Assembly (NCBI RefSeq): GCF_947331435.1
Contig: NZ_CAMZOF010000004.1
Span: forward strand, 124,001 to 188,000
Reading direction: 5' to 3'
Origin: Pelagibius sp. Alg239-R121
GTDB lineage: Bacteria; Pseudomonadota; Alphaproteobacteria; Kiloniellales; Kiloniellaceae
DNA: 64,000 nt
A program made the translations under genes and the position numbers. The notes beneath the pieces were generated by a model. That model did not search any database and was not told the DNA's origin. It saw only the letters and a list, made by a program, of their open reading frames with translations. Each line of letters starts with the position of its first letter. The stretch's first letter is position 1. This document shows, one piece after another, positions 47,925 through 63,479 of the stretch.

Positions 47925-48926
47925 ATGCAAGATACCGCCGTCGAGATCGACCGAAACGCCGCTCCCGACGCAGATACCAGTCGTCAGATCGCGTCGCTAT
48001 CTCAGCATCTTTCAAGTGGCTTGATTGGCCGCTCGCCTCTCGTCGAACGCCTTCTGATCGGTCTGCTCACCGGCGGACATCTGTTGATCGAGGGGGCGCC
48101 GGGATTGGCGAAGACCCGCGCGGTCAAGCTGTTGTCCCAGGGGGTCGATGCCTCCTTTGCCAGAATTCAGTGCACTCCGGACCTCATGCCGGCGGATTTG
48201 ACCGGCACGCCCGTGTTCAGGCCTGATCGGGGCGAGTTCGAGTTCGTGCGCGGACCAGTGTTTCATTCGCTCGTGCTGGTCGACGAGATAAATCGCGCAC
48301 CGCCCAAGGTTCAGTCTGCTTTGCTGGAAGCAATGGCCGAACACCAAGTCACAGCGGGCGGTGCGACTTATCCGTTGCCAGACCCCTTCATGGTCGTTGC
48401 CACTCAAAACCCGATCGAACACGAAGGCACCTTTCCTCTACCGGAGGCGCAACTCGACCGTTTTTTGCTGCATGTGGTGCTTGATCTTCCCGATGCAGTG
48501 GCCGAGCGCGAGATCCTGGATCTGGTTGAGCGGGAGACGACGGTAACGCCGGCTCCGGATGTCGATCAACTCAGCCCGGAGATCCTGCATCAGGCCCAGG
48601 CCGCGGCGATGCAGGTGCATCTCGCACCGGCTTTGAAAGACTATATCGTGCGCTTGGTCACTGCGACCCGGGATCCGGAAATCGCACCTGATGTGCGCCG
48701 CGCTATTGAGCACCCCATTTCACCACGTGGCACACTTGCGCTTGCCGCCGCTGCCAAGGCACACGCCTATCTGGCCGGCCGCGATTATGCAGTGCCGGAA
48801 GATGTCGTTGAACTTGCAACCGATGCGCTGGCCCATCGGATCGTCCTGACTTGGCGTGCAGCCGCAGACGGTGAGACCGCACGCAATCTGGTGCATCAGC
48901 TGCTCAAGCAGGTTCGGCCTCTTTGA
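47925..48926 (+). CDS. MoxR-family AAA+ ATPase
   Basis: The 333-residue ATPase has Walker A GAPGLAKT (57-64), the RIQCTPDLMPADLTGTPVF segment, Walker B LVLVDEINRAPPKVQ (D120/E121), a sensor 1 region VVATQNPIEHEGTFPLPEAQLDRF and a C-terminal lid with HPISPRGTLALAAAAKAHAYL. MoxR proteins act with von Willebrand A proteins as chaperone-like remodelers. AGGAAGAAGGC precedes ATG 47925. It leads the Bat-type operon; DUF58 follows directly. Confidence 0.93.
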   Translation: MQDTAVEIDRNAAPDADTSRQIASLSQHLSSGLIGRSPLVERLLIGLLTGGHLLIEGAPGLAKTRAVKLLSQGVDASFARIQCTPDLMPADLTGTPVFRPDRGEFEFVRGPVFHSLVLVDEINRAPPKVQSALLEAMAEHQVTAGGATYPLPDPFMVVATQNPIEHEGTFPLPEAQLDRFLLHVVLDLPDAVAEREILDLVERETTVTPAPDVDQLSPEILHQAQAAAMQVHLAPALKDYIVRLVTATRDPEIAPDVRRAIEHPISPRGTLALAAAAKAHAYLAGRDYAVPEDVVELATDALAHRIVLTWRAAADGETARNLVHQLLKQVRPL

Positions 48927-48927
48927 T

Positions 48928-49860
48928 ATGGATACGCTTAGCGGACTCCAGGAACCTGACCCCTTAGCCGTTCCAGGAGTGACGGCCGATACCGAAGCCC
49001 TGCTGAAGCTGCGCCATCTGGTCCGGAATATTCCGGAGCGCCGCCTTGCGCCAACCGGCATGCCAGGTGGATTCATGACCCGGCGGCGCGGGCGGGGGCT
49101 CGAGACGATCGATATCCGGGTCTTTTCCTATGGTGATGATGTCCGGCATGTCGACCATAATACGACGGCGCGCACCGGCGTCACTCATGTGCGGACTTTT
49201 CACGATGAGCGGGAACGCACGGCCCTGCTGATCGCCGATTTCCGGCCCGCGATGCTCTGGGGGACTCGCCGCGCGCTGCGCTCGGTTGCCGCCGCTGAGG
49301 CTCTGTCCTTGACCGGCTGGCGTGTCAATGAAGCCGGCGGCCGGGCAGGGCTGATAGCTTTCGGTAGCGGGGCACCGGTCTTTGCTGCGGCGCGCGGGCG
49401 CGAACGGGGTATGGTCGCAGTAATCGGTGGGCTTGCCGCCGCGCATCGCGATGCACTTGCGACGGCGGCGGAAAGTCGAGACCTGGAAGATCAACCGCTC
49501 GAAGTCGCACTGGAAATGGCGGCCGGACTGGTGCCTGCAGGTGGCTCGGTTTTTCTGGCCACAGGTCTGGACAATCCAGGCAAGGGTTTTGACGCACTTG
49601 CCGTGGCGCTCAATCGCCGCGCAGCGCTCACGGTACTGCTGGTCACCGATGCCTTTGAACGCAGGGCACCTGCCGGTTCCTATCCTTTCATCTCCGGGCA
49701 AGGCCGGATCCGCTGGGCTTTGATTGGCGGCGAAAAGCGTGAGGCCGCCAAGGACCGGCGGATCGAACATCTGACCCGGCTCGGTATCGTGGTCGTACCG
49801 GTAGACGCAAGTGCTGGCCCCGAAGTGATGGCTGACGATCTGGCCAGAGGTCTGGAGTAA
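48928..49860 (+). CDS. DUF58 domain-containing protein
   Basis: The protein of about 310 residues starts MDTLSGLQEPDPLAVPG (ATG 48928, 1 nt after the moxR stop). The DUF58 pattern VFSYGDDVRHVDHNTTARTG, then VRTFHDERERTALLIADFR, is followed by a VWA-like C-terminal fold. The family is found next to MoxR in most bacteria and probably bridges MoxR to membrane VWA partners; the precise function is unknown. It lacks obvious membrane helices, unlike many longer DUF58 proteins. Confidence 0.9.
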   Translation: MDTLSGLQEPDPLAVPGVTADTEALLKLRHLVRNIPERRLAPTGMPGGFMTRRRGRGLETIDIRVFSYGDDVRHVDHNTTARTGVTHVRTFHDERERTALLIADFRPAMLWGTRRALRSVAAAEALSLTGWRVNEAGGRAGLIAFGSGAPVFAAARGRERGMVAVIGGLAAAHRDALATAAESRDLEDQPLEVALEMAAGLVPAGGSVFLATGLDNPGKGFDALAVALNRRAALTVLLVTDAFERRAPAGSYPFISGQGRIRWALIGGEKREAAKDRRIEHLTRLGIVVVPVDASAGPEVMADDLARGLE

Positions 49861-49864
49861 ACCC

Positions 49865-50341
49865 ATGGCCGAGCCGTTGACCGCGGAAACCGCGAAAGCT
49901 CTTTCCCAGCTCAGGGACATACATCTTCCGGAACTGTCGGAGGCCGGCATTCTTGCAGATTGGGCCGCCGGCGCATCGCTAGGCTTGCTGGCCGCAGTGT
50001 TTCTCACGCTGCTGGGAGGTGCGGTTCTCAGGAAGTTGCCGTCTCACCGCAAGAACGCTCTCGTTGCACTGACGGCCAGCCGCACTCTGGAACCTGCCGA
50101 GCGGCTGCTCGCCCAGGCGAAGATCCTGCAGGCGATCGCACTGCAGGAGGACCGAAAAGGAGACCAGAATGCCACGGACCGGCATTGGTCCATGACTTTT
50201 GAACAGCGCTTACCCGGTCATTTTTTTACTGCTGGTGCCGGCATGTCCTTGCGCGACGATCTCTACCGGCCTGAACCCCGCACGGACCCAGAGGCGATTG
50301 ATCGGGAGATCCTGCGCCTGCTCAAACGGCGGCGGGGCTGA
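49865..50341 (+). CDS. DUF4381 domain-containing membrane protein
   Basis: The 158-residue protein has an N-terminal segment LSQLRDIHLPELSEAGILADWAAGASLGLLAAVFLTLLGGAVLR, with a single membrane helix near residues 33-53, and a cytosolic C-terminal helical part rich in Arg and Glu. The RDIHLP motif at the membrane entry is typical of DUF4381 proteins, which lie between DUF58 and VWA genes. Its role is unknown. It starts 4 nt after the DUF58 stop. Confidence 0.85.
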   Translation: MAEPLTAETAKALSQLRDIHLPELSEAGILADWAAGASLGLLAAVFLTLLGGAVLRKLPSHRKNALVALTASRTLEPAERLLAQAKILQAIALQEDRKGDQNATDRHWSMTFEQRLPGHFFTAGAGMSLRDDLYRPEPRTDPEAIDREILRLLKRRRG

Positions 50342-50346
50342 CGACC

Positions 50347-51303
50347 ATGTTCGATTTCGCAACACCGCTCGCGTTCCTGCTGTTGCCCTTGCCGATTCTG
50401 GCAGTGCGATTGCTGCCGCCCCTATCGGGTGCAAGCGGTGCTATATCGGTGCCAACGAGTATCGCTGTCGATCTTGGTCAGACCGGAAGTGCAGGTCTCG
50501 CGGTTGCCGGACGAAAGCTGCTTCCGATTATCCTTTGGGTGGCACTGGTCGTGGCCATCGCAGGGCCGCGTCTCGTGGTTCAGAGTCCCGCTCTGCCGGC
50601 GTCGGACCGGGACATCGTGCTCGCCTTGGACCTGTCCGGCAGCATGGAGCGTAAGGATTTCGAGCTGGATGGCGAACCTGCCCGGCGGCTCGATACGGTA
50701 AAACGCGTTGCGGTCGATTTCGTTCGTGGCCGCGCAGGCGACCGGGTTGGTTTGGTCATCTTTTCCGAAAAGGCTTTTTTTGCCACGCCCCTGACGTACG
50801 ACGTCGAGGCTGTCGCGCACAGCGTCGAAGAAGCGACGATCGGCATTGCCGGCCGTTCCACGGCAATTAGTGACGGTTTAGGGTTGGCACTCAAGCGACT
50901 GGAGGCTTCGGCATCGAAGTCGCGGGTCGTGATCCTGCTGTCCGACGGTGTGAATACCTCCGGCAATGTCGAGCCGAAGGACGCAGCGACGCTTGCCAAG
51001 GATTTGGGAATCCGTGTTCACACCATCGCAATGGGGCTGCATGCGACCACGGACGAAGGCCATAACCGGGATGCCGTCGATGCCGAAACCCTGCAGGCGG
51101 TTGCCGAACTCAGCGGCGGCACGAGTTTTCGCGTCCGCACTACCGCTGACCTCGAGGCTGTTGGTCGTTCGATCGACATGATGGAATCGAACCGGAACGT
51201 GGCCCCCGCGACGCAGATTTATCGCGACTTTTGGATCTATCCGGCGGGACTTGCTTTTCTGCTCGCCCTTGCGCTCGTCTTTACTGGTCGGAGACAGGCA
51301 TGA
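50347..51303 (+). CDS. VWA-domain membrane protein (BatA-like)
   Basis: The 318-residue protein has two N-terminal hydrophobic helices (about 7-25 and 57-74), a von Willebrand A domain with a full MIDAS motif DLSGS (95-99), and a C-terminal helix (about 294-312). GRSTAISDGLGLALKRL and VILLSDGVNTSGN are typical BatA segments. It belongs to the Bat set (aerotolerance in Bacteroides and envelope-related functions elsewhere). It overlaps the next gene by 4 nt. Confidence 0.9.
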   Translation: MFDFATPLAFLLLPLPILAVRLLPPLSGASGAISVPTSIAVDLGQTGSAGLAVAGRKLLPIILWVALVVAIAGPRLVVQSPALPASDRDIVLALDLSGSMERKDFELDGEPARRLDTVKRVAVDFVRGRAGDRVGLVIFSEKAFFATPLTYDVEAVAHSVEEATIGIAGRSTAISDGLGLALKRLEASASKSRVVILLSDGVNTSGNVEPKDAATLAKDLGIRVHTIAMGLHATTDEGHNRDAVDAETLQAVAELSGGTSFRVRTTADLEAVGRSIDMMESNRNVAPATQIYRDFWIYPAGLAFLLALALVFTGRRQA

Positions 51304-52226
51304 TCGAGATTTTCGATATCATGCTTTTACGCCCTCAGTGGTTGCTCGTCGTGCCACTGGTCGCTGTTGTCGGCTACTACTTTGTGCCCCGCGTGACAGC
51401 TCTTGCCGGTTGGGACCGTGCCATTGACCCGGCTCTTCTGGCTGCGCTTGAGCGGCTCGGCCGGGTCGTGCCCGGCTCTGGCCGCCGGAACTGGTTTCCC
51501 GCTGCGACGGCGATGCTGATTGCGTTTGCATTGATTGGTCCGGCAAACGAGGTAAGGGAAGGGGCCAGTTTTCGCAATCTTGACGGTTTGGTCGTCGTCA
51601 TGGATCTGTCCCGTTCGGTGACCGAAAGCACACGGTTGGGTGAAACGCTCGCGGCTGCCCGGCAGATGATCGATCAGGCAGGGACGAGACCGGTCGCGCT
51701 GGTCGTCTACGGCGGCGATGCCTACTTGGCCTCGGCTTTTACGAGCGATCATCGGGCATTGGGAACAACCATTGCGGTTCTGGACAGCGAGACGATCCCA
51801 GATGCCGGCAGCCGCCCAGAACGCGGTTTGGCTTTTGCACGCCGCTCGCTTGTAGACGCGGACATCGTCGCAGGCGATGTCGTACTGGTGACCGACGGCG
51901 GCGGCCTTGGCGATGCCGCGTTTCGAGAGGCCGATGCTATTGCTCGGCTTGGCAGCAGGGTTTCCGTTGTTTTTGCACCATCGGCCGAAGCAAGCACGAA
52001 CTCATCGCCACCGGACCAAGGATTGGTCGAAGCGCTGGCGAGGAGTGGCGGTGGGCGCGTTGCCGATGTTCTCGATCCGGCGACCATTGTCGCGCTGACG
52101 GACGAAAGCGCTTCGGCACGTTTGGCCGATGGTGATTTCGCAACCTTGGCCTGGCAGGACTATGGCCGTTTTCTGCTGCTGCTGGCATTGATCCCTGCAC
52201 TTGCCCTCTTCCGGCGGGGAGGATGA
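51300..52226 (+). CDS. VWA-domain membrane protein (BatB-like), altered MIDAS
   Basis: The 308-residue protein starts MIEIFDIMLLRPQWLLVVPLVAVVGYY at ATG 51300 and has N-terminal and C-terminal membrane helices around a VWA domain. The MIDAS core is DLSRS (102-106), which keeps DxSxS but replaces the usual Gly with Arg. The second VWA protein of Bat operons typically carries such changes. VLVTDGGGLGD follows the core. It is coupled to the genes on both sides. Confidence 0.88.
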   Translation: MIEIFDIMLLRPQWLLVVPLVAVVGYYFVPRVTALAGWDRAIDPALLAALERLGRVVPGSGRRNWFPAATAMLIAFALIGPANEVREGASFRNLDGLVVVMDLSRSVTESTRLGETLAAARQMIDQAGTRPVALVVYGGDAYLASAFTSDHRALGTTIAVLDSETIPDAGSRPERGLAFARRSLVDADIVAGDVVLVTDGGGLGDAAFREADAIARLGSRVSVVFAPSAEASTNSSPPDQGLVEALARSGGGRVADVLDPATIVALTDESASARLADGDFATLAWQDYGRFLLLLALIPALALFRRGG

Positions 52227-52227
52227 G

Positions 52228-52875
52228 ATGAGGCGGATTCTTATTTTGTCGTTTCTGGTCGTGCTGACGGCGGCCGGTTCCATTGCGCTTGATGGAATGG
52301 CTCCTTTCGGCCGGCTTGCACTCTCTCTCGGCTATCCCGCGTTTGCCGCACCGCTTTTGGATGACCCTTTCTGGAAGGGCGTCGCGCTTTACCGCCAGGG
52401 CCGCTACGAGGAAGCCGTGACGGCCCTGCGTGCTGCGGGTCCGTCGGGATACTATGACCGGGGAAACGCGCTGGTACATGCCGGCCGTTTCAACGAAGCG
52501 ATTGAGGTCTACGACGCGCATATCTATAGGATGCCACACGATGACGATGCCCACGTCAATCGCGCTTTGATCGTGGATCTCGTCGGCGTAATCGGCGACG
52601 GTTCAACCACGGACGGGCGGGTGACTGACGCACTGGTGGCGGGCGAAGAATCGGAGGAGGAGGCAGAGAAAACCGACGCGATGTCCGAGGCTTGGAACCG
52701 CTGGCGGGATAACGGCCGCAGGACTTTCGTGGATCAAGCCGTGATTGCCAGCCGGCAATGGCTTGCGACCCTGACGGACGAGCCCGGCCTCTATCTCAAA
52801 CTGCGGCTTGCGGCCGAGCACAAGCGGCGCTTTGAACGCGGCATTGCGGTGGCGCCGGAGAGTGACACATGGTGA
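52228..52875 (+). CDS. TPR-containing membrane protein (BatC-like)
   Basis: The 215-residue protein starts MRRILILSFLVVLTAAGSIAL, a signal anchor, and has a TPR-like segment (LYRQGRYEEAVTALRAAGPSGYYDRGNALVHAGRFNEAIEVYD, about residues 53-96). The C-terminal part is charged. BatC-like TPR proteins follow the VWA pair in Bat operons. ATG 52228 lies 1 nt after the previous stop, and its own end overlaps the next gene by 7 nt. Confidence 0.82.
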   Translation: MRRILILSFLVVLTAAGSIALDGMAPFGRLALSLGYPAFAAPLLDDPFWKGVALYRQGRYEEAVTALRAAGPSGYYDRGNALVHAGRFNEAIEVYDAHIYRMPHDDDAHVNRALIVDLVGVIGDGSTTDGRVTDALVAGEESEEEAEKTDAMSEAWNRWRDNGRRTFVDQAVIASRQWLATLTDEPGLYLKLRLAAEHKRRFERGIAVAPESDTW

Positions 52876-54143
52876 GCCGTTTTCCGTTCCTTGTCGTCGC
52901 CACCTGCTGGATCATAACGTTTTGTGGTTTCGGCGGTGCCTTGTCGGCGCAGGAGATTTCGGACGCTTTCGGGGGCTTCGCCGAGGTGCTGGTGGAGCCT
53001 ATGCCTGAGACGCCGTACGAACAGGAAATGGTGTTGATAAAGATCCGCGGAATCTATGCCAGTAAACCCGCGCGCCACAGTCTTGAACAGCCCATTATTC
53101 TGAACGCCGGCTGGATGCAGCTGGGCAGTGACAGCTGGACCGATGCCGTGCATGACGGTAAAGCGGTAAACGCGTTCGAGCGTATTATGGCCATCTTTCC
53201 ACAGAAGGCCGGACAGATCGAGATTGGCGCCTTCGAGCATCGCATGACCTTTCACGCTCTTGACGGAAGCTGGGTTGAACGGGTGCTCCGATCGGATCCG
53301 GTAATAATCGAGGTGCGGCCGAAACCCGTGACCAAGGAGTGGTGGTTGCCTGCGCGCGGACTGACGGTCACCGACAGTTGGGATCGCGCCCCCGATCAAC
53401 TCGGGCAGGCGGAATTGGCCCACAGGACTGTGACGCTCGAGGTGCGTGGCGTGGGGCCCGAACGCTTGCCGTCTGCACCTGACATGCGTTCGCCCGGTAT
53501 CATGTCCTTCAGCGATCCCGAGGAGCGCAGCCATGAACTCACCCCAGAAGGACCGGTGTCGCGGGTAACCTGGCGTTGGACGGTCCGGTCCATCACCTCG
53601 ACGCCGGCGATCATAGAAGCGGTGCGCATTCCTTGGTTCAACACCATGACGCGCACGGCTGACGAAGTGATGCTCGCGGAACAACGCGTCAGCCTCGCCG
53701 GCGAGGAAGCCGTGCAAGCGGCTCCCGAGACCTTGATAACAACGACGGCCGCTTTCGCTCTTCCTGTCGGTTTACTGATCGGCGCGCTTGCGGGCCTCGC
53801 TATGCTGATTCCCGGTCTGCGCTTGAGAACCCGGGCCGAGTTGGCTGGCCTTCTGCGCCCCTTGACCCGGGATCCAATGGTCAGGGAACTGCGTCGGGCA
53901 GCTCGGTCAGGTGATGCCGCAAGCGTCCGGTTCGTTGCGCATCGGTTGCTTCAAAGCGATCGGGAGGCGGGCCGGGAAGGGAGGTCGGATCCTGACACTC
54001 AGGAGGGGCTTGCCCGTCTGGATCGTGCCTTGTTTGCATCGTCGCCAACCGCAACGTCGGATGTCGATCTTCGCGCTTTGGTTCAAGGCCTGTTGCGCAG
54101 CAGAGCATCTGGCAGGTGGTTTCGGCCCGGAAGCTTGCTATAA
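52869..54143 (+). CDS. BatD-like periplasmic protein
   Basis: The 424-residue protein has a signal peptide (CWIITFCGFGGALSAQE), a long beta-rich periplasmic part (with EVLVEPMPETPYEQEMVLIKIRGIY at the start, as in BatD), and one membrane helix near residues 292-315 followed by a cytosolic basic tail. It completes the MoxR-Bat set. It overlaps the TPR gene. The Lin0512 gene follows after 86 nt, so the transcript may continue. Confidence 0.85.
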   Translation: MVSRFPFLVVATCWIITFCGFGGALSAQEISDAFGGFAEVLVEPMPETPYEQEMVLIKIRGIYASKPARHSLEQPIILNAGWMQLGSDSWTDAVHDGKAVNAFERIMAIFPQKAGQIEIGAFEHRMTFHALDGSWVERVLRSDPVIIEVRPKPVTKEWWLPARGLTVTDSWDRAPDQLGQAELAHRTVTLEVRGVGPERLPSAPDMRSPGIMSFSDPEERSHELTPEGPVSRVTWRWTVRSITSTPAIIEAVRIPWFNTMTRTADEVMLAEQRVSLAGEEAVQAAPETLITTTAAFALPVGLLIGALAGLAMLIPGLRLRTRAELAGLLRPLTRDPMVRELRRAARSGDAASVRFVAHRLLQSDREAGREGRSDPDTQEGLARLDRALFASSPTATSDVDLRALVQGLLRSRASGRWFRPGSLL

Positions 54144-54229
54144 CGTCTTTCTGGAACAGGATCGTTCTTGGCGGAACCAGTCACGAACTTTACTTCCATC
54201 ACACATGGTTTCTTTCAGGATTTCCCGAA

Positions 54230-54580
54230 ATGGCATTAAAGAGAATGGCGGTCGAGTTCGGCATGGGCACCGATCTGCATGGCGAGGACTACACCAAGGC
54301 AGCAGTGCGTGCGCTGCGGGATGCGCTTTGGCATAACTCCCTGAACGTGGCCGATGCGCTCGGCTTTCCGCGTGAAGCCATGATCGTCGAGGTGATGATC
54401 GGTGTGGCAAAACCGGATGCGGTCAACAAAGATGAGGTGGCCGCCGTGCTGCCTTACGGCTCCGCGACAGTAAAAGTAGAAGAAGGCGGTCTTGACGTCA
54501 CCCGGGCCGGCGGTTCGGGACGGACGGTCGTGGCCAATGCCGCTGCCATCGTCTACTTCGATATTGCGGAAGGAATTTAG
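54230..54580 (+). CDS. Lin0512-family protein, first copy
   Basis: The 116-residue protein starts MALKRMAVEFGMGTDLHGEDYTKAAVRALRDAL, which is the family hallmark (GMGxDLHGxDxTKAA). It has Ile/Val-rich strands and an NxGVxKP-like stretch (VMIGVAKPDAV). The function of the family is not known to me. The frame is open to 54116, but the family N-terminus favours ATG 54230. A paralogue follows 3 nt after its stop. Confidence 0.88.
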   Translation: MALKRMAVEFGMGTDLHGEDYTKAAVRALRDALWHNSLNVADALGFPREAMIVEVMIGVAKPDAVNKDEVAAVLPYGSATVKVEEGGLDVTRAGGSGRTVVANAAAIVYFDIAEGI

Positions 54581-54583
54581 GTC

Positions 54584-54952
54584 ATGACCGTCAAACGCTT
54601 GATCCTGGAAATGGGCACCGGCAACGACCTCTATGGCGAGGACTACACCAAGGCCGCCGTGCGTGCTGTGCAGGATGCGCTGCATCATTCCTCTCTCACC
54701 CTGTTCCGCTCCTTAAAGCTGGAGCACGATGCCATGCAGGTCACGGTCAACATCGGGGTTCAGAAACCGGAGTGCGTGGACGTCGACAAGGTGAAGCAAC
54801 AGATACCTTTCGGCACCGTCACGGTCGTCGCCGTCAAGGGCGGCCTGAACATACCTGATCCCGAAAACGATATCCTCTCCGTAGTGGCGACCGCCGGCGT
54901 GGAAGCCCACCTGGATATCCCAGATGGAAAATTCAAGCTGGCCGACTCGTAA
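54584..54952 (+). CDS. Lin0512-family protein, second copy
   Basis: The 122-residue protein starts MTVKRLILEMGTGNDLYGEDYTKAAVRAVQDAL and is clearly paralogous to the gene before it (same N-terminal motif, same NIGVQKPECV strand). The two differ in many positions, so they are old or diverged duplicates, possibly subunits of one heteromeric protein. The gap to the aldo/keto reductase is 28 nt, which suggests one operon. Function unknown. Confidence 0.88.
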   Translation: MTVKRLILEMGTGNDLYGEDYTKAAVRAVQDALHHSSLTLFRSLKLEHDAMQVTVNIGVQKPECVDVDKVKQQIPFGTVTVVAVKGGLNIPDPENDILSVVATAGVEAHLDIPDGKFKLADS

Positions 54953-55973: not shown

Positions 55974-56081
55974 GAAGCTTCTCGGTTTCCATGTGCAGCT
56001 AAGCAGACCCAGTGAAGATCCACTTTGCTGCCGGCTCCTTTGCGGCCACTCGGATGACAGCGGCCAAGAGTGTGAAATGCT

Positions 56082-56147
56082 CTCTAACTACATGAGTAGG
56101 AGGCGGATTCACATCGCTCACTAATTAAGTGAAAAACGATCAGTCTC
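56082..56147 (+). repeat. Dispersed intergenic repeat, copy D
   Basis: It starts CTCTAACTACATGAGTAGG, includes CGGATTCAC, and ends with TAAGTGAAAAACGATCAGTCTC. It is most similar to copy B at 2859-2925 (read on the minus strand). Confidence 0.65.
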
Positions 56148-56261
56148 AAACCGGTCCTAGTGATAAAGCCGAGACAGAGCTCGTCGCGCGTTTGACGTGG
56201 TTCAACCACAGAATTTCACTGTTACCACCGGCTCAAACATTCGCATAATCTTCTCGAAACA

Positions 56262-56279
56262 TCATGCAAAAATGCATGA
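56262..56279. promoter_or_regulatory. Palindrome TCATGCA-AAAA-TGCATGA
   Basis: A 7-bp inverted repeat with a 4-nt spacer in the gap upstream of the giant protease gene. Possible regulator site; no family assigned. Confidence 0.35.
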
Positions 56280-56319
56280 CCATCATGTGAATTTTCCTGT
56301 TCAAGTTGTGATTAAAAAA

Positions 56320-56333
56320 ATGTAAGCTTACAT
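56320..56333. promoter_or_regulatory. 14-bp perfect palindrome ATGTAAGCTTACAT
   Basis: Perfectly symmetric, in an AT-rich stretch directly before a small ATG at 56334. Possible operator of an unknown regulator. Confidence 0.4.
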
Positions 56334-56480
56334 ATGAAAAAAACACCTCCAGGGCTGCTAAATCAGGTCTGGATCAGGCGGTTGATGCTGGGTGTTGCCG
56401 GTCTGGCTTGTTCTTTTTTTCAGGGCAGGTTCGCTCTTGGTCGACGCGGGCGAGAGTGTAAGAAATAATCTAACAAGCTG

Positions 56481-56497
56481 ATAAATAGACTATTTAT
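56481..56497. promoter_or_regulatory. Palindrome ATAAATA-GAC-TATTTAT
   Basis: A 7-bp inverted repeat with a 3-nt centre, in the same gap. AT-rich; it may be an operator or simply promoter-like sequence. Confidence 0.3.
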
Positions 56498-56955
56498 ATC
56501 TGGACTCGACCAACGGATTCAAGCGGTGGATGAGGGCAAGGTTCCGTCTGACGTTGACATGCGACAGGTACGGCCTTTTCCACATGAGCTTACCTGTCGA
56601 ATTTGAATGAGGTGGAAGGGTTCCACCAGAGAGTTTGCTTTTCACCGGGTCAGTCCGTTCTCTTTGGTTGCAACAATTGTCCGGGTTGTTACTGGCGCTG
56701 AAGGCGACTTGTCGGCTCCTGGTAGAGAGAGCTGCCGTTGTTGGGGTTTGGCTGCTCAGAAGGATCCCGATCACCGTCGCAAGTGATTTAGAGGGCGAGT
56801 TTGTCAATGCCGGATTGTGCTGCGGTTATTGGGAGTTCCGCGGTGAAGGAGTGCGAGGAAAAAGCGGCGTTAGTTAAGAAACGCGGGGCACCCGCCAGCC
56901 TGTTTGAATCCTGTTCGCGCATGGCTGCAAACACCGAACCCATGAGGTCCTAACA

Positions 56956-59900
56956 ATGCTTGTTTCCAAAACGAGGCGTCTTAAGCGCCAAGAGAATTGT
57001 ACTTCTAAAATGAGCGGCGGCAAACGCTTGGTGTCGCTCTCGATAAAAGGCCTGCCGCAGGTTTATGCGCGCACGCTCTGGGCGGTTGATTCCAGCGCCA
57101 CGACGATTTGGTTTGTTGAGGGGCGAGAAGTTCACCGTTATCGCATTCATCGTAAAAGTGACTTTCCTTATGCGGAAAAGGTCTGCTCTACCGAACTGCC
57201 AGGCGAGGTAAGCAAGATTGTTACCGCAGAAGATGGTGCGTTCTTTGCCGTTCTCGACCGTGATTGCGAGACTTGGGAAATTGTCGAAATCGGTGATGCG
57301 TCAAGCCGGGCCGTGAAGCGGCTTGATAGAGAACCTACCGCGATTGCGGCGACCCGACGTAGCCTTGTTTTCGTGACTCCCGGACAGGGGCTTGATCGAC
57401 CTGAACTGATAGTTCTCGGCCGGCGCGACGGCCGCGTGGCAAGGCGCCTGCCTCTTGCGTCAGAAAATGTGCGCATACGGGTTGGTGCCGGAGACGAAGT
57501 GCTTATTGCTGAACAGGGCGGCCGTCTGCGGTATGTCGATACGTCCAGACGCGAAGATAATTGTGGGCGAGATCCCGTTCCGCCCAGAACGCCGCCGGGG
57601 CAACCGGACGATTGTGACAAATGCCACGCTGGCTGTGGCTGCCGGTGCAAACCGCCCCGCCGACCCGGCGGGCATGACGAAGTGCCGGGTGATCCGCCGA
57701 GACAACCGAACGATCCGGACGGGCAGTGCGTTCCCGGTGATGACGGCGTGCCGGATCGCTGCTGGGTGACGACCTATTTGAACGGCAAGGTGATCCGCAT
57801 AAACATATGCGAGCCAACGGATCCAACCTGCGTGGCAACGACCGGTTTTCAGGTGCGCCGCATCGACCGGACAAGACGTGCGCTCATCGCGACATCTGAC
57901 GATGGCCGCCGTCGTGCGGTCCTTGAGTCGGATACACTGCGCGTCCTTCACCAAACGCGTACAGATCAGGCCGCCGTTGCCATGGCGTCGGCAGCTGCCG
58001 CGGATGCCCTTTTTCTGCAGACCGAAGCCGGTGAGATCCAACTGCTGGATGCGGCACCGCTCCTGAGCTTGGATGTCGCTGCACCCGTTACTCGCTCAGC
58101 CGTTCATGACGGCGAGAGCCCGGTCACTCAGTACAGCCGGGATGGAGTTCAGGTCGGCCTGCGGACGGTTCTGATAATACCGGTACTGGAGCCGGGACAA
58201 GCCTACACCGGCAACACCGATGAGATCGCCGACTATTATGAGATGCAGGATATATTGGCGCGGGTGCAGGATTTCTATGAAGAAGCAACCTATGACCAGC
58301 AGCCCGATCACTTTGGTTTAAGCGTTCGGTTCCTTTGGTTCGGAGCTCATACACCAACGGTCTACACCGGACCACCGGTGCGAATCGAAAAGCCGTTGAA
58401 AGAATATTGGGGTCCTGCATGGGACCCGGGCCACATCAAGAGCAGCGTTGATGTTCCGATGACAGGCCTGATGTTGGGTTTTTCCGGGGATGAACGCCTT
58501 GAAATAACCTGCGAGCCCTCGCCTGAAGAAACCTATGATCCGTTGAACTTTACGATCCGTTTTCCCGCTGCAAGCTATCGAAGCCGGATCTCGAATGGCA
58601 CACCGGCAGTTACTTATCAGGCGTCTCTTATGCCGGCGCGAGCAATCGCTGTCGATGGCGTTGACAGGCAAGGAGCGAACTTCTTTATTTCGGTCGATAC
58701 GTCGATCCTTTCCGGACAGACAGTCCTCGAACTGACGCGTCTTGAACTCATCGGTTCGACCGATCCGCTGGAGGCTCTTGCTGATGTACTGGAAGAGCTG
58801 CTGGAGAGCGCAGAGCCGGGGTTGTTCCAACGCCCATCGGTCGTTTGGCATGACGACGGTGATGAAACCGGCATGCTTCATGTCACATTGCTCTTTGCCG
58901 ATGCGCCTGGCGGGGTCGCTCCGCGCGTCACGAACTTCAACATTGACGATCTGCTAAATCATGTCGGTAGTGGATCGACTGCAGCAACCTTTTCGATTCC
59001 TGGGGATGAAGGCACGCTTCAGTCTTATCTGCGTCGCAACGTGACTGATGCCCATGTGAGGAATTCGGAGTTTGGGCCGGATCTGTCGGAGTCCTATTTC
59101 GACCTCGACAACAACTGGCAACCCTGGGTGCGCTTGGAAGCCGGTGTGCTCGAAACACGAATAAGCTTATCCACAAAGCATGGACGCGATCCGGCTGTCA
59201 TCCGTTTCGACAATCAGATCGGGCTGGATCAGATCGGCATGGATATGCCTGTTGAAGGGATCGGCGCAGATGCCTCCTACAGCGGGGGCGGTGGCCCAAA
59301 ATTCGAAAACAATGACCTGTTTGACGATGTCTATACAGCGATGATCGACGCCGCAATCGATAGCTGGGCCGGACCGGCAGAGGCCGCCATCGACGCAATC
59401 AACAGGCGATTTAACTGCATCGGACTTGAGCAATTTCCTTTCGAATGCGCATTCGATCTCATTCACTCTGTTGTTGTGACTCCCGTCTACCCCGGCCCGC
59501 CGTTTAGCGGAACGAGCACGGAACCGGATTTGGTGAATGGTGAACGCGGCGCGTCAAAAGGCACGACGATGTCGGATCTCAAGGCCGAAGAGCGCGCGAA
59601 GCCGGTGCTGCCGATTTCATCGAATCGCCGCAAAATCATTATGAAAATTGCAGTAGACAGCGCGACAGACTCTGACCGCGCGAGCCGAAGTGCTGGGACG
59701 CTCGCGCACGAACTCGGCCATGCCTTGTTGGGCCTTCCCGATCTTTACAGCGGAGGCAGTTTCCGTTCGGACGTGCGCTACATGGGCGGGCATTGCCTGA
59801 TGGGTGACAGCGGTTCTTTTGCTCATTTCTGCGCTTACAACAAACGCATCAAGGGTTGGCTTGATGATGATGCAATCCTTATCCTGGATCGGCCCTCGGG

Positions 59901-61536
59901 TGAGGAAGAAATCGATCAGGAAGTTGTGCTTATTCAGTTGGAGCATTGGGATCCGACTTTCGACGCCGCGACGTTAGATGCGATTGCGCAAACTGCGTTG
60001 AGCGGCATGGCTCCGGGTACGCCGGTTAAGGCAGCGGTTTATCTGCGGCTCGGAGGTGACGGCCGGCAGTTTGATATTCTCGAGTTGCGCGGACCTGGAC
60101 AGCGGTTTTCCAACGGCATCACGCCGCCGCGCGTCGTCGTCAGCAATGCCATTGACCCTGACGACGACAGCCGTTATTCCGACATCGAGGTCGAGGGCGC
60201 TGGAACGACCGAAGACGTGCTGGAGCGTTACCGTAGAAAAGTGCACCTGCTATCCAGCGCATTGCGAGAGACGACAATCGGCACTGCTGATGCGACTTAC
60301 GATTTTGCTTCGGATCCGGAGTTTCCCGAAGTTGGGCTGACGGTCCAACTGCTGGAATGGGGGACCGGGTCGACGTCATCCGGAAGTTTCTCTATTGCCC
60401 GGTTGCAAATCGCTTGGGAGCGCGGGGCGGCCATCAACCTGGGTTTCAAAGATGCGACCCCTGACTGGCAAAGCCCGGACATCGCCGTCATCCGGCCGGA
60501 AGACATAGATGACGCTGGGAATTTCGAATTTCCCGAAGATCAGGAGGACGTTGAGTATTTCCGGATACCGCCGGAAGGCGGCGCGTCGTTACCTCACGAG
60601 ATTGCCGTGAAGGTGTGGAACTTTGGTGATGCGACGGCCGAAAACGTTCAGATCGGGTTGATCCGGCGAAGGCCGAAAGGCGGCGGTGGTGGCGATTGGG
60701 AGAACGACGCTGAGTTTTTGGAAACGCTACCCGACCCGGTGCCGCCATCGACGGATCAGTCCCCGCCAATCATTTCCTTTGATTGGGAAGTCGAAGAAGA
60801 CTCTGAAACTCATCTTTGCTTTCGTGCGCAGATTGGAGATCGCGATGTTCCCCGGAACAATGACGGGGTTGCGCTGGCCTCGGATGACACGGATGCGTCC
60901 AACGACTGGGCACAGCAAAACGTGTTCGAATTCGAAGCCGAAGCCGACAGTCCTCCTGATCCCGTTGAGTTTACGTTCGAGGTCAATAACGCGGGGTCAT
61001 ACGTCGAGGATGTCTCGGTTGTGCCTGCTGGTCTCGATGCCGGGGCAGTGGTGAAGGTTACGCCGGACCGGATGAGAATTGCGCCGAGGTCGCGCGGTTA
61101 CTTTCGCGTTCGGGCTGAGTTGAGCGAGCGTTTGCTCTACGCGAATTGCGGAAAAGACATCGATTTCCGGCTGGAGGTCCTGCGGCTGGAAGATCACGCG
61201 CAGGAGCGCTGGGGCGCATCGCGCTACGTCATCAAACCGAGATTCAGAACCGAAACCGTCTTAAACGGCGGATTAATGCCGGAACGGCTGACACTCTTCG
61301 GTCATGTTAGCCCCGATGTGGGCGCGCAGGATGTGTTGCTGCAGATTCAGCGTGTCGGCCGCCCGACAGTTTGGACGAGAGTGCCGCTTGGCCCCGCGTC
61401 GACATTCGATTTCGAAATTGAAGACGACTTTCCGGCCAATGAAGAAGTTCGCGCCGTCGCTTACTTTGACGGCAGCTTCGAGCATGCGAAATCTCGCTCA
61501 AAGCCAGTATCGTTGACCTGGCAGGTACAAGGGTAA
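56956..61536 (+). CDS. Giant M6-like metalloprotease with beta-propeller-like N-terminus
   Basis: The 1526-residue protein starts MLVSKTRRLKRQ. Residues about 30-200 and 270-390 have repeated short beta-strand blades (propeller-like), interrupted by a Pro/Gly/Asp/Cys-rich insertion at about 200-273 with eight Cys. The protease part begins near 405 with VLIIPVLEPGQ, then VQDFYEEATYDQQPDHFGLSV, as in M6 peptidases, and has the zinc motif HELGHALLGLPD (H918, E919, H922, D929). RYMGGHCLMGDSG follows, with the Met-turn-like Met. The C-terminus has CARDB-like domains (near 1212 and 1340). No signal peptide is visible, which is odd for this family. ATG 57010 is another possible start. Confidence 0.75.
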   Translation: MLVSKTRRLKRQENCTSKMSGGKRLVSLSIKGLPQVYARTLWAVDSSATTIWFVEGREVHRYRIHRKSDFPYAEKVCSTELPGEVSKIVTAEDGAFFAVLDRDCETWEIVEIGDASSRAVKRLDREPTAIAATRRSLVFVTPGQGLDRPELIVLGRRDGRVARRLPLASENVRIRVGAGDEVLIAEQGGRLRYVDTSRREDNCGRDPVPPRTPPGQPDDCDKCHAGCGCRCKPPRRPGGHDEVPGDPPRQPNDPDGQCVPGDDGVPDRCWVTTYLNGKVIRINICEPTDPTCVATTGFQVRRIDRTRRALIATSDDGRRRAVLESDTLRVLHQTRTDQAAVAMASAAAADALFLQTEAGEIQLLDAAPLLSLDVAAPVTRSAVHDGESPVTQYSRDGVQVGLRTVLIIPVLEPGQAYTGNTDEIADYYEMQDILARVQDFYEEATYDQQPDHFGLSVRFLWFGAHTPTVYTGPPVRIEKPLKEYWGPAWDPGHIKSSVDVPMTGLMLGFSGDERLEITCEPSPEETYDPLNFTIRFPAASYRSRISNGTPAVTYQASLMPARAIAVDGVDRQGANFFISVDTSILSGQTVLELTRLELIGSTDPLEALADVLEELLESAEPGLFQRPSVVWHDDGDETGMLHVTLLFADAPGGVAPRVTNFNIDDLLNHVGSGSTAATFSIPGDEGTLQSYLRRNVTDAHVRNSEFGPDLSESYFDLDNNWQPWVRLEAGVLETRISLSTKHGRDPAVIRFDNQIGLDQIGMDMPVEGIGADASYSGGGGPKFENNDLFDDVYTAMIDAAIDSWAGPAEAAIDAINRRFNCIGLEQFPFECAFDLIHSVVVTPVYPGPPFSGTSTEPDLVNGERGASKGTTMSDLKAEERAKPVLPISSNRRKIIMKIAVDSATDSDRASRSAGTLAHELGHALLGLPDLYSGGSFRSDVRYMGGHCLMGDSGSFAHFCAYNKRIKGWLDDDAILILDRPSGEEEIDQEVVLIQLEHWDPTFDAATLDAIAQTALSGMAPGTPVKAAVYLRLGGDGRQFDILELRGPGQRFSNGITPPRVVVSNAIDPDDDSRYSDIEVEGAGTTEDVLERYRRKVHLLSSALRETTIGTADATYDFASDPEFPEVGLTVQLLEWGTGSTSSGSFSIARLQIAWERGAAINLGFKDATPDWQSPDIAVIRPEDIDDAGNFEFPEDQEDVEYFRIPPEGGASLPHEIAVKVWNFGDATAENVQIGLIRRRPKGGGGGDWENDAEFLETLPDPVPPSTDQSPPIISFDWEVEEDSETHLCFRAQIGDRDVPRNNDGVALASDDTDASNDWAQQNVFEFEAEADSPPDPVEFTFEVNNAGSYVEDVSVVPAGLDAGAVVKVTPDRMRIAPRSRGYFRVRAELSERLLYANCGKDIDFRLEVLRLEDHAQERWGASRYVIKPRFRTETVLNGGLMPERLTLFGHVSPDVGAQDVLLQIQRVGRPTVWTRVPLGPASTFDFEIEDDFPANEEVRAVAYFDGSFEHAKSRSKPVSLTWQVQG

Positions 61537-61563
61537 CGACGATCCTGAGGCCGGCCTAGCGAG

Positions 61564-61604
61564 GGACGATCGTTTTACTTTGAGTCGAAGCAAAACGATC
61601 GTCC
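61564..61604. terminator. Bidirectional hairpin between convergent genes
   Basis: GGACGATCGTTTT (61564-61576) pairs perfectly with AAAACGATCGTCC (61592-61604); an inner CTT/AAG extends the stem after one mismatch. It lies between the protease (plus) and the catalase-like gene (minus) and probably ends both transcripts. Confidence 0.7.
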
Positions 61605-61669
61605 ACACGAGGGCAGTCTGAGTTCTGCCCATTTCGTTCGTGTTGCTGGCTTGACTACTCTTCTTGCTG

Positions 61670-62879: not shown

Positions 62880-63479
62880 ATGTCCACGAAGGACGATATC
62901 CTTTCGCTGTTGCGGCGCGAATCGCTGACTGTTACCGAACTTTCAGCCCGGTTGGACGTTACCCGCAATGCGGTGATCGTGCCCCTGCGTCAGCTTGAAG
63001 CTGACGGCTTGATCCAAGGCGCCGAGCGCCGGGACAAGAGAGTGGGGAAACCGGCGCTTGAATACACTGCCGTGGCGGGCCGGGAGGATGTAGCGTCGCG
63101 CGCCTATCCACCTTTTGCCGAACTCTTACTGCAAACGCTGCCCGAACATCTCTCGCGCGATCAGATCAGCCGCTTGATGCAGCAGGTCGGCCGGAAGATG
63201 GCCACCCATCTGGACGCGGATGCAGAAGCAGGCTTCTCCGAACGCCTTAAGGCGGCGACCGATTTTGCCGACAGCGTCGGCGCCGAGACTGTGGTTGAGG
63301 AAACGGGTGACGGCGCGGTAGTGCGCAGTTATAGCTGTCCGCTCGGGCGGGCCGTCCGTCAGGAGGCTTGCGTATGCTCAGTCATCGCCGCTTTCTTCGC
63401 CGAGGTGACGGACGCCGAGGTTGACGAGCAGTGCGATCGGGGCGAGAAGCTCTTTTGCAAGTTCGTGATCACTGAGTAA
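62880..63479 (+). CDS. Winged-helix regulator with C-terminal cysteine cluster (SufR-like pattern)
   Basis: The 199-residue protein has an N-terminal winged helix (MSTKDDILSLLRRESLTVTELSARLDVTRNAVIVPLRQLEADGLIQ) and a C-terminal ligand domain with five Cys: C153, C164, C166, C185 and C193. SufR-type regulators hold an Fe-S cluster with a similar C-x10-12-C...C...C arrangement in CPLxxV...C...C...F. It faces a catalase-like peroxidase gene across a palindromic promoter, so control by oxidative or Fe-S status is plausible, by inference. Confidence 0.82.
   Translation: MSTKDDILSLLRRESLTVTELSARLDVTRNAVIVPLRQLEADGLIQGAERRDKRVGKPALEYTAVAGREDVASRAYPPFAELLLQTLPEHLSRDQISRLMQQVGRKMATHLDADAEAGFSERLKAATDFADSVGAETVVEETGDGAVVRSYSCPLGRAVRQEACVCSVIAAFFAEVTDAEVDEQCDRGEKLFCKFVITE

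Follow-up and report, generated by a model that had tools for sequence, protein, structure and literature searches.

A large M6-like metalloprotease with no visible signal peptide in Pelagibius sp. Alg239-R121: a putative known active site in an unfamiliar protein frame

Enzymes of peptidase family M6 are best known as secreted proteins. In Pelagibius sp. Alg239-R121, a stretch of 64,000 nucleotides (contig NZ_CAMZOF010000004.1, positions 124,001 to 188,000 of the forward strand), hereafter referred to as the window, carries a gene for a protein that has an M6-like zinc site and in which no signal peptide is visible. What kind of protease is this, and where would it act? The protein places a known active site in an unfamiliar frame and, likely, in an unusual location. 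The best explanation, to which we give a probability of about 0.5, is a zinc endopeptidase of the metzincin type, large and encoded by a single gene, with an M6-like site. It would not use the Sec route and probably works in the cytoplasm, and its gene would be accessory and probably mobile, with a role most likely in conflict or defence. By analogy, it is likely an ordinary zinc endopeptidase in its chemistry.

The gene and its presumed translation signal are as follows.
56944 to 56948, forward strand: Shine-Dalgarno-like GAGGT, 7 nucleotides 5' of the ATG, from the sequence
56956 to 61536, forward strand: M6-like metalloprotease gene of 1526 codons, from the frame, the profile match and a homologue

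The open reading frame of 1526 residues that the earlier note had placed here was confirmed. Upstream of M1 the frame stays open for just 16 codons, up to a TGA, and none of these codons is ATG, GTG or TTG; a start further upstream with a signal peptide is thus ruled out. A full-length homologue was found in a genome of another family of the same order (G023), with an identity of 59% from residue 1 to the end and of 60% over residues 28-1526. The differences between the two genes at the first, second and third codon positions are 0.32, 0.24 and 0.62, respectively, highest at the third position and exceeding chance; the gene is real. The dN is 0.35 and the dS is 3.07, a value that is near saturation and that was not computable in 3 of the 10 regions compared. 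Judged from these sequences, both genes look to be under selection at the protein level. With a GC3 of 0.601, the gene falls below all 15 other window genes compared, which range from 0.620 to 0.764. Two promoter-like and three terminator-like sites lie 5' of the gene, against 0.7 and 1.0 in shuffles, and one terminator-like site lies 3' of it, at 61611-61630, against 0.4; these counts carry little information. An Rfam search gave no match.

The catalytic half can be described by three features.
59311 to 59985, forward strand: M6-like catalytic half, residues 786-1010 (TIGR03296 match at 908-975; hhalign 98.2%, 3.1e-14)
59707 to 59748, forward strand: HELGHALLGLPDLY, with putative ligands H918, H922 and D929, putative catalytic E919, and Y931, the roles being assigned by analogy with M6 and with the IgA protease in the available part of PMC12237041
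59794 to 59802, forward strand: Met-turn C947-L-M949, with C947 and M949 kept in the homologue, aligning with the CLM of two M6 proteins, L003 and L008

The numbering of H918, E919, H922 and D929 in HELGHALLGLPD, as read earlier, is correct. Counting of the residues gives the zinc motif HExxHxxxGxxD, in which the Asp stands one position further from the second His than in the classical HExxHxxGxxD, and it rules out the classical form. All nine active-site positions checked (H918, E919, H922, G926, D929, Y931, C947, M949 and C959) are kept in the homologue, while the GW at 967-968 is replaced by RW. In a search of NCBIfam, the only match was TIGR03296 (M6), over residues 908-975, with an E-value of 3.9e-12 and 46.7 bits; the homologue scored 44.5 bits (E 1.8e-11). 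Neither protein reaches the curated cut-off of 110.8 bits. When profiles were compared with each other, four M6 proteins aligned to residues 911-975 at 97.4% and E 1.3e-11, and five M6 proteins, in a comparison limited to residues 780-1030, at 98.2% and E 3.1e-14; in these alignments the Met-turn and the helix after it also align. The Pfam check that the earlier note had proposed gave nothing significant: no family, PF05547 included, matched the whole protein at E-values up to 10, and PF05547 matched a fragment with E 0.18. Searches of the PDB with the protein, with the pair, and with the four-protein M6 profile gave no significant match. The single-sequence AlphaFold2 models, of residues 1-480 (strand-rich) and 380-1170, have mean pLDDT values of 41.0 and 35.8, too poor to interpret, and they speak neither for nor against a zincin fold; the second model has, at low confidence, a helix over 907-924 that resembles an active-site helix.

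With the M6 family of MEROPS, or thuringilysins (immune inhibitor A; TIGR03296, PF05547), the window protein shares the active-site helix, a GLPDLY motif, and the Met-turn LMG with the segment that follows it. It differs in a distance from the second His to the Asp that is longer than in the HExxHxxGxxD form, in a score below the family cut-off, in the lack of a significant Pfam match and of a visible signal peptide, and in its unfamiliar flanks. The five M6 proteins used for comparison are themselves diverse at this site. L009 has exactly HExxHxxxGxxD, L004 has the short form, and L033 is ambiguous; in L003 (891 residues) and L008 (764 residues) the Asp stands at the same distance as in HExxHxxxGxxD, with the Gly missing. 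These last two proteins resemble the window protein in this distance, in the C-L-M Met-turn and in a start that does not look like a signal, and L003 in addition shares a Cys in the helix that follows this turn. The similarity to this type extends over about 65 residues, with 37% identity to L003 and 38% over 64 columns of the four-protein profile.

The IgA protease (IgAse) of T. ramosa, which we take to belong to family M64, was also compared. Membership of M64 was rejected, as the match was not significant, with E-values of 0.26 (phmmer) and 0.12 (profile) over 34-36 residues only. The available part of the IgAse study (PMC12237041, 2025) calls HExxHxxxGxxD a unique zinc motif, and describes an Asp as the third ligand, a Tyr nearby, and a Cys two residues before the Met of the Met-turn. 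The window protein has the same motif, and it shares the Tyr at Asp+2 and the Cys at that position. However, the zinc-binding Glu that follows the Asp in IgAse is a Leu here, and IgAse carries a signal peptide according to the same source. The string HExxHxxxGxxD also occurs in papers about CLCA proteins and about metallopeptidases of gut bacteria. By curated score the protein is outside clean M6 membership, and, as far as sequence comparison goes, it is outside M64 too.

The remainder of the protein, from residue 396 on, is less easily placed.
58141 to 58365, forward strand: residues 396-470, which may be the N-terminal half of an M6 domain, with DFYEEATYDQ from 439 (p 0.047; p 0.18 in another register)
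58366 to 59310, forward strand: residues 471-785, a candidate for a domain inserted into the M6 domain, from the distance between DFYEEAT and HExxH, with boundaries set by eye
59986 to 60450, forward strand: residues 1011-1165, 73% identity to the homologue, no family (p 0.37 against M6; 0 Pfam families)
60451 to 61533, forward strand: residues 1166-1526, conserved tail with an identity of 61% and, further on, of 74%, whose likeness to Ig/CARDB is by eye

The segment DFYEEATYDQ, noted before as lying upstream of the active site, is present with its first residue at 439. In the comparison with five M6 proteins, the upstream half aligned with p 0.047 and in the M6 register, DFYEEATYD lying over DYFRDNS, while with four M6 proteins the register differed and p was 0.18. 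The similarity to M6 is not significant in the middle region (p 0.8) or after the active site (p 0.37). Because of these flanking values, we claim M6 similarity for about residues 880-1000, and what the other regions offer is suggestive. The earlier reading of the protein as an M6-like protease therefore stands for the active-site half, through TIGR03296 and the profile-profile comparisons, and is suggestive for the upstream half. DFYEEAT at 439 lies 479 residues before HExxH at 918 in the window protein and 478 in the homologue, compared with 116-143 in the five M6 proteins. If DFYEEAT is indeed the M6 element, 336-363 extra residues would split the M6 domain. Here L003 and L008 are unlike the window protein, having ordinary M6 spacings (116 and 126) and P-domains instead of the tail. 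No relative of residues 471-785 was detected beyond the pair, there being no Pfam family in the window protein and one chance-level Pfam match (E 0.083) in the corresponding region of the homologue. By eye, FDILELR...VVVSNAID within residues 1011-1165 takes the place of YFIVENR...GLAIWHVD of M6, at the p of 0.37 given above, which is not significant. The Ig/CARDB-like character that had been ascribed to the tail was not borne out by Pfam, which gave 0 families for either protein at E-values up to 10.

The N-terminal part consists of four segments of very different conservation.
56956 to 57555, forward strand: residues 1-200, basic (pI 9.8), fast-evolving, probably β-rich, propeller-like by appearance only, 33% identity to the homologue
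57556 to 57711, forward strand: residues 201-252, variable loop rich in Cys and Pro, 42% identity
57712 to 57855, forward strand: residues 253-300, conserved Cys segment with C258, C269, C285 and C292, 69% identity
57856 to 58140, forward strand: residues 301-395, variable region, 33% identity

The identity of 33% in residues 1-200 and 301-395 compares with 59-74% from residue 396 on. The Cys/Pro-rich stretch of the earlier note is real, with 8 of the 20 Cys residues of the protein located within residues 200-275. In the loop, C203, C229 and C231 are conserved in the homologue, and C220, C223 and C227 are not; within residues 253-300, DPDGQCVPGDDGVPDRCW is identical in both proteins. In all, 14 of the 20 Cys residues are kept in the homologue, including the closely spaced pairs 258/269, 285/292, 821/831 and 947/959. 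The propeller blades proposed for the N-terminal part are unproven. Internal repeats were not above chance in the four regions searched, their scores being reached by 6, 17, 13 and 28 of 60 shuffles, and with the values for residues 1-400 (6/60) and 1-200 (17/60) they lend the blades no support. The best Pfam hint of a propeller, PQQ_2, had an E-value of 0.12 in the window protein, with none in the homologue.

The scaffold is rare, and it was seen in two of the bacteria searched. In two overlapping sets of genomes of the order, 3 of 58 and 3 of 61 had a match, which correspond to the own genome, the G023 homologue and a genome with a motif-only match (G030); among the 60 genomes of the order other than its own, one has a full-length relative. 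Samples of the class and the phylum gave a match in 2 of 385 and 2 of 398 genomes, the own genome and one motif-only match each, and contained no full-length relative. With the tail alone as query, 1 of 329 genomes matched (the own genome), and with the protease region 3 of 318, the own genome and two short or weak matches. These four sets evidently excluded G023, and they are therefore samples. At E 0.01, the whole protein had no match among 72,556 plasmid or 50,697 phage records. Three protein fragments searched against plasmids at E 10 gave none, none (residues 397-1015) and five chance matches (E 3-9), and no relative was found in viral contigs. A scan of a collection of genome contigs with two exact peptide patterns, a method that may miss distant relatives, returned 221 stretches and one M6-motif relative. 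TIGR03296 itself matched in 9 of 289 genomes of the class, 2 of them above the cut-off. In a limited literature search, the available parts of PMC12237041, PMC3890501, PMC8195603 and PMC7159879 gave no description of this architecture.

The site of the gene is defined by two further features.
55975 to 61662, no strand: stretch unmatched in three sister species (no blastn match at E 1e-3 in the stretches from G001, G002 and G003)
56065 to 56147, no strand: dispersed palindromic repeat, lying between genes upstream of the protease gene and not part of it, with 12 other matching places in the own genome

The gene is present in one of the four genomes of the genus, and is absent from G001, G002 and G003. 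In comparison with G002, homology ends at 55974, at the end of an aldo/keto reductase gene, and restarts at 61663, in the catalase-HTH block; at the corresponding site of G002 lie two frames, of 367 and 261 residues, that are unrelated to the gene. Beyond the reductase, the first homology in G001 and G003 is a piece of 56 bases that corresponds to 63419-63474, and neither of these two genomes has a catalase match anywhere at E 1e-60. The site between the aldo/keto reductase and the catalase-HTH block is variable. Other copies of the repeat, which is about 80 bp long, have 71-80% identity to it, and an alignment of eight copies has a palindromic core; by sight it looks like an element of the REP or MITE type. 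The eight neighbours scanned encode two Lin0512 proteins, an aldo/keto reductase, a catalase, an HTH protein, a PhzF-like protein, an aromatic lyase and a phosphatase, and from their sequences they are ordinary metabolic or regulatory genes. The two Lin0512-family genes form a tandem pair at 54116-54952 of the window. Further upstream, at 47925-54143, there is a row of genes for a MoxR-type AAA protein, DUF58, DUF4381, two VWA proteins, a TPR protein and one protein with no Pfam match, which looks like an ordinary operon of the Bat type.

The surroundings of the homologue in G023 are of another kind. By sight, an IS3-like transposase frame lies just upstream of it and IS66-like frames downstream. 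Within about 15 kb are genes for a protein that is trypsin-like by sight (Nal1_C E 1.8e-4, below cut-off), a 187-residue unknown protein, APH, HopA1/LanC, caspase-TPR, patatin, calcineurin-like, SMC-like and OLD/GajA-like proteins, and a 398-residue protein with no Pfam match that is by sight an α/β hydrolase. This dense run (L010 3840-9841 and L011 5091-16603) is a candidate defence or conflict island. No gene family is common to the window neighbours and the scanned neighbours of the homologue, and the HopA1/LanC protein gave no match in the genome of the window, in a search run without a positive control.

As had been stated earlier, no signal-like start was seen at M1 or M19, by eye and by hydropathy, and the eight neighbours scanned include no secretion gene. 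The start of the homologue is at the corresponding position, and it likewise has no signal-like stretch. A membrane segment is unlikely because the most hydrophobic 19-residue window has a Kyte-Doolittle mean of 1.26. The earlier argument that this is odd, M6 enzymes being secreted, is weakened, since L003 and L008, which score above the TIGR03296 cut-off (170.4 and 161.6 bits), have no signal-like start by eye either, the true start of L003 being uncertain; L004, L009 and L033 do have one. L003 and L008 combine P-domains, the lack of a signal-like start and the longer His-to-Asp spacing, the last shared by L009, so that intracellular-looking M6 proteins may form a small separate class. Because no feature seen in the sequence would export the protein and M6 proteins without a visible signal exist, its most likely site of action is the cytoplasm of the producing cell. 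The 14 conserved Cys residues count against this, as several are close together and could form disulphides, which would suit export. Export that bypasses Sec (through type I in the absence of RTX arrays, through type VI or by cell lysis), with digestion of extracellular or rival-cell proteins, would also agree with the secreted habit of M6, with the signal-like starts of three of the five M6 proteins and with the acidity of the whole protein (pI 4.7). Against it stand the lack of a visible Sec-type signal, the lack of a secretion gene among the eight neighbours scanned, and the lack of an RTX array, each of the two proteins having a single GGxGxD match within a glycine run; we regard this alternative as rather unlikely.

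The protein could otherwise belong to a defence or conflict island, as a protease that stays inactive until its N-terminal module senses an invader and that then cleaves proteins of the cell or the phage. This is a narrower form of the best explanation, with which it overlaps, and in this specific form we consider it unlikely. The defence-like surroundings of the homologue, the rapid divergence of the N-terminal part and the accessory site of the gene are consistent with it, and the available parts of PMC7159879 and PMC8195603, on conflict systems, mention effectors with metallopeptidase or inactive zincin-like domains, which are rare. However, nothing in the sequence or setting of the protein ties it to those systems, no PADLOC family matches it, no partner gene is common to both loci, and IS-like frames stand between the homologue and its neighbours at the only such locus. 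A pseudo-protease or structural protein that has retained its zinc site would account for the long unfamiliar regions and for an NCBIfam score so far under the cut-off, but with nine of nine active-site positions kept in both proteins we find this very improbable. The boldest reading, a new peptidase family with a zinc site intermediate between M6 and M64 (HExxHxxxGxxD plus a Met-turn Cys), a large inserted domain of its own and a fast-evolving N-terminal sensor, acting as an intracellular effector of mobile conflict, seems doubtful to us.

We thus return to the cytoplasmic M6-like endopeptidase as the preferred reading, and infer its catalysis, domain roles, cytoplasmic action, mobility and conflict role as follows. 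Made without a visible Sec or Tat signal, the protein would act in the cytoplasm of the cell that produces it. By analogy, H918, H922 and D929 would hold a zinc ion that polarises a water molecule, which E919 would use to attack the peptide bond; M949 would form the floor of the Met-turn, and Y931 may help to stabilise the transition state. The cleft is probably shaped or covered, and the substrate chosen, by residues 471-785 together with the tail 1166-1526. For the fast-diverging N-terminal module (1-395), whose Cys core is conserved, the probable task is to sense a partner or to position it. The gene is accessory and probably mobile, with a role most likely in defence or in conflict between elements. 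In favour of this reading count the presence of the gene in one of four genomes of the genus, the variable site, the lowest GC3 and the IS-flanked homologue. An accessory, perhaps conflict-related role is proposed because of the one neighbourhood in G023 and the fast divergence of the N-terminal part; against the conflict role count its dependence on that one locus, the ordinary window neighbours and the absence of a PADLOC family.

What is new here is a known type of enzyme in a new arrangement, within a scaffold that is otherwise unfamiliar. If the protein is an intracellular M6-type protease, a family best known as secreted would enter the cytoplasm, and, if its proposed role is true, a metzincin would join the few metallopeptidases proposed as effectors of bacterial conflict. 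The motif HExxHxxxGxxD, unique to IgAse according to the available part of PMC12237041, is present in L009, a protein with an M6 domain, and this bears on the relation between M6 and M64.
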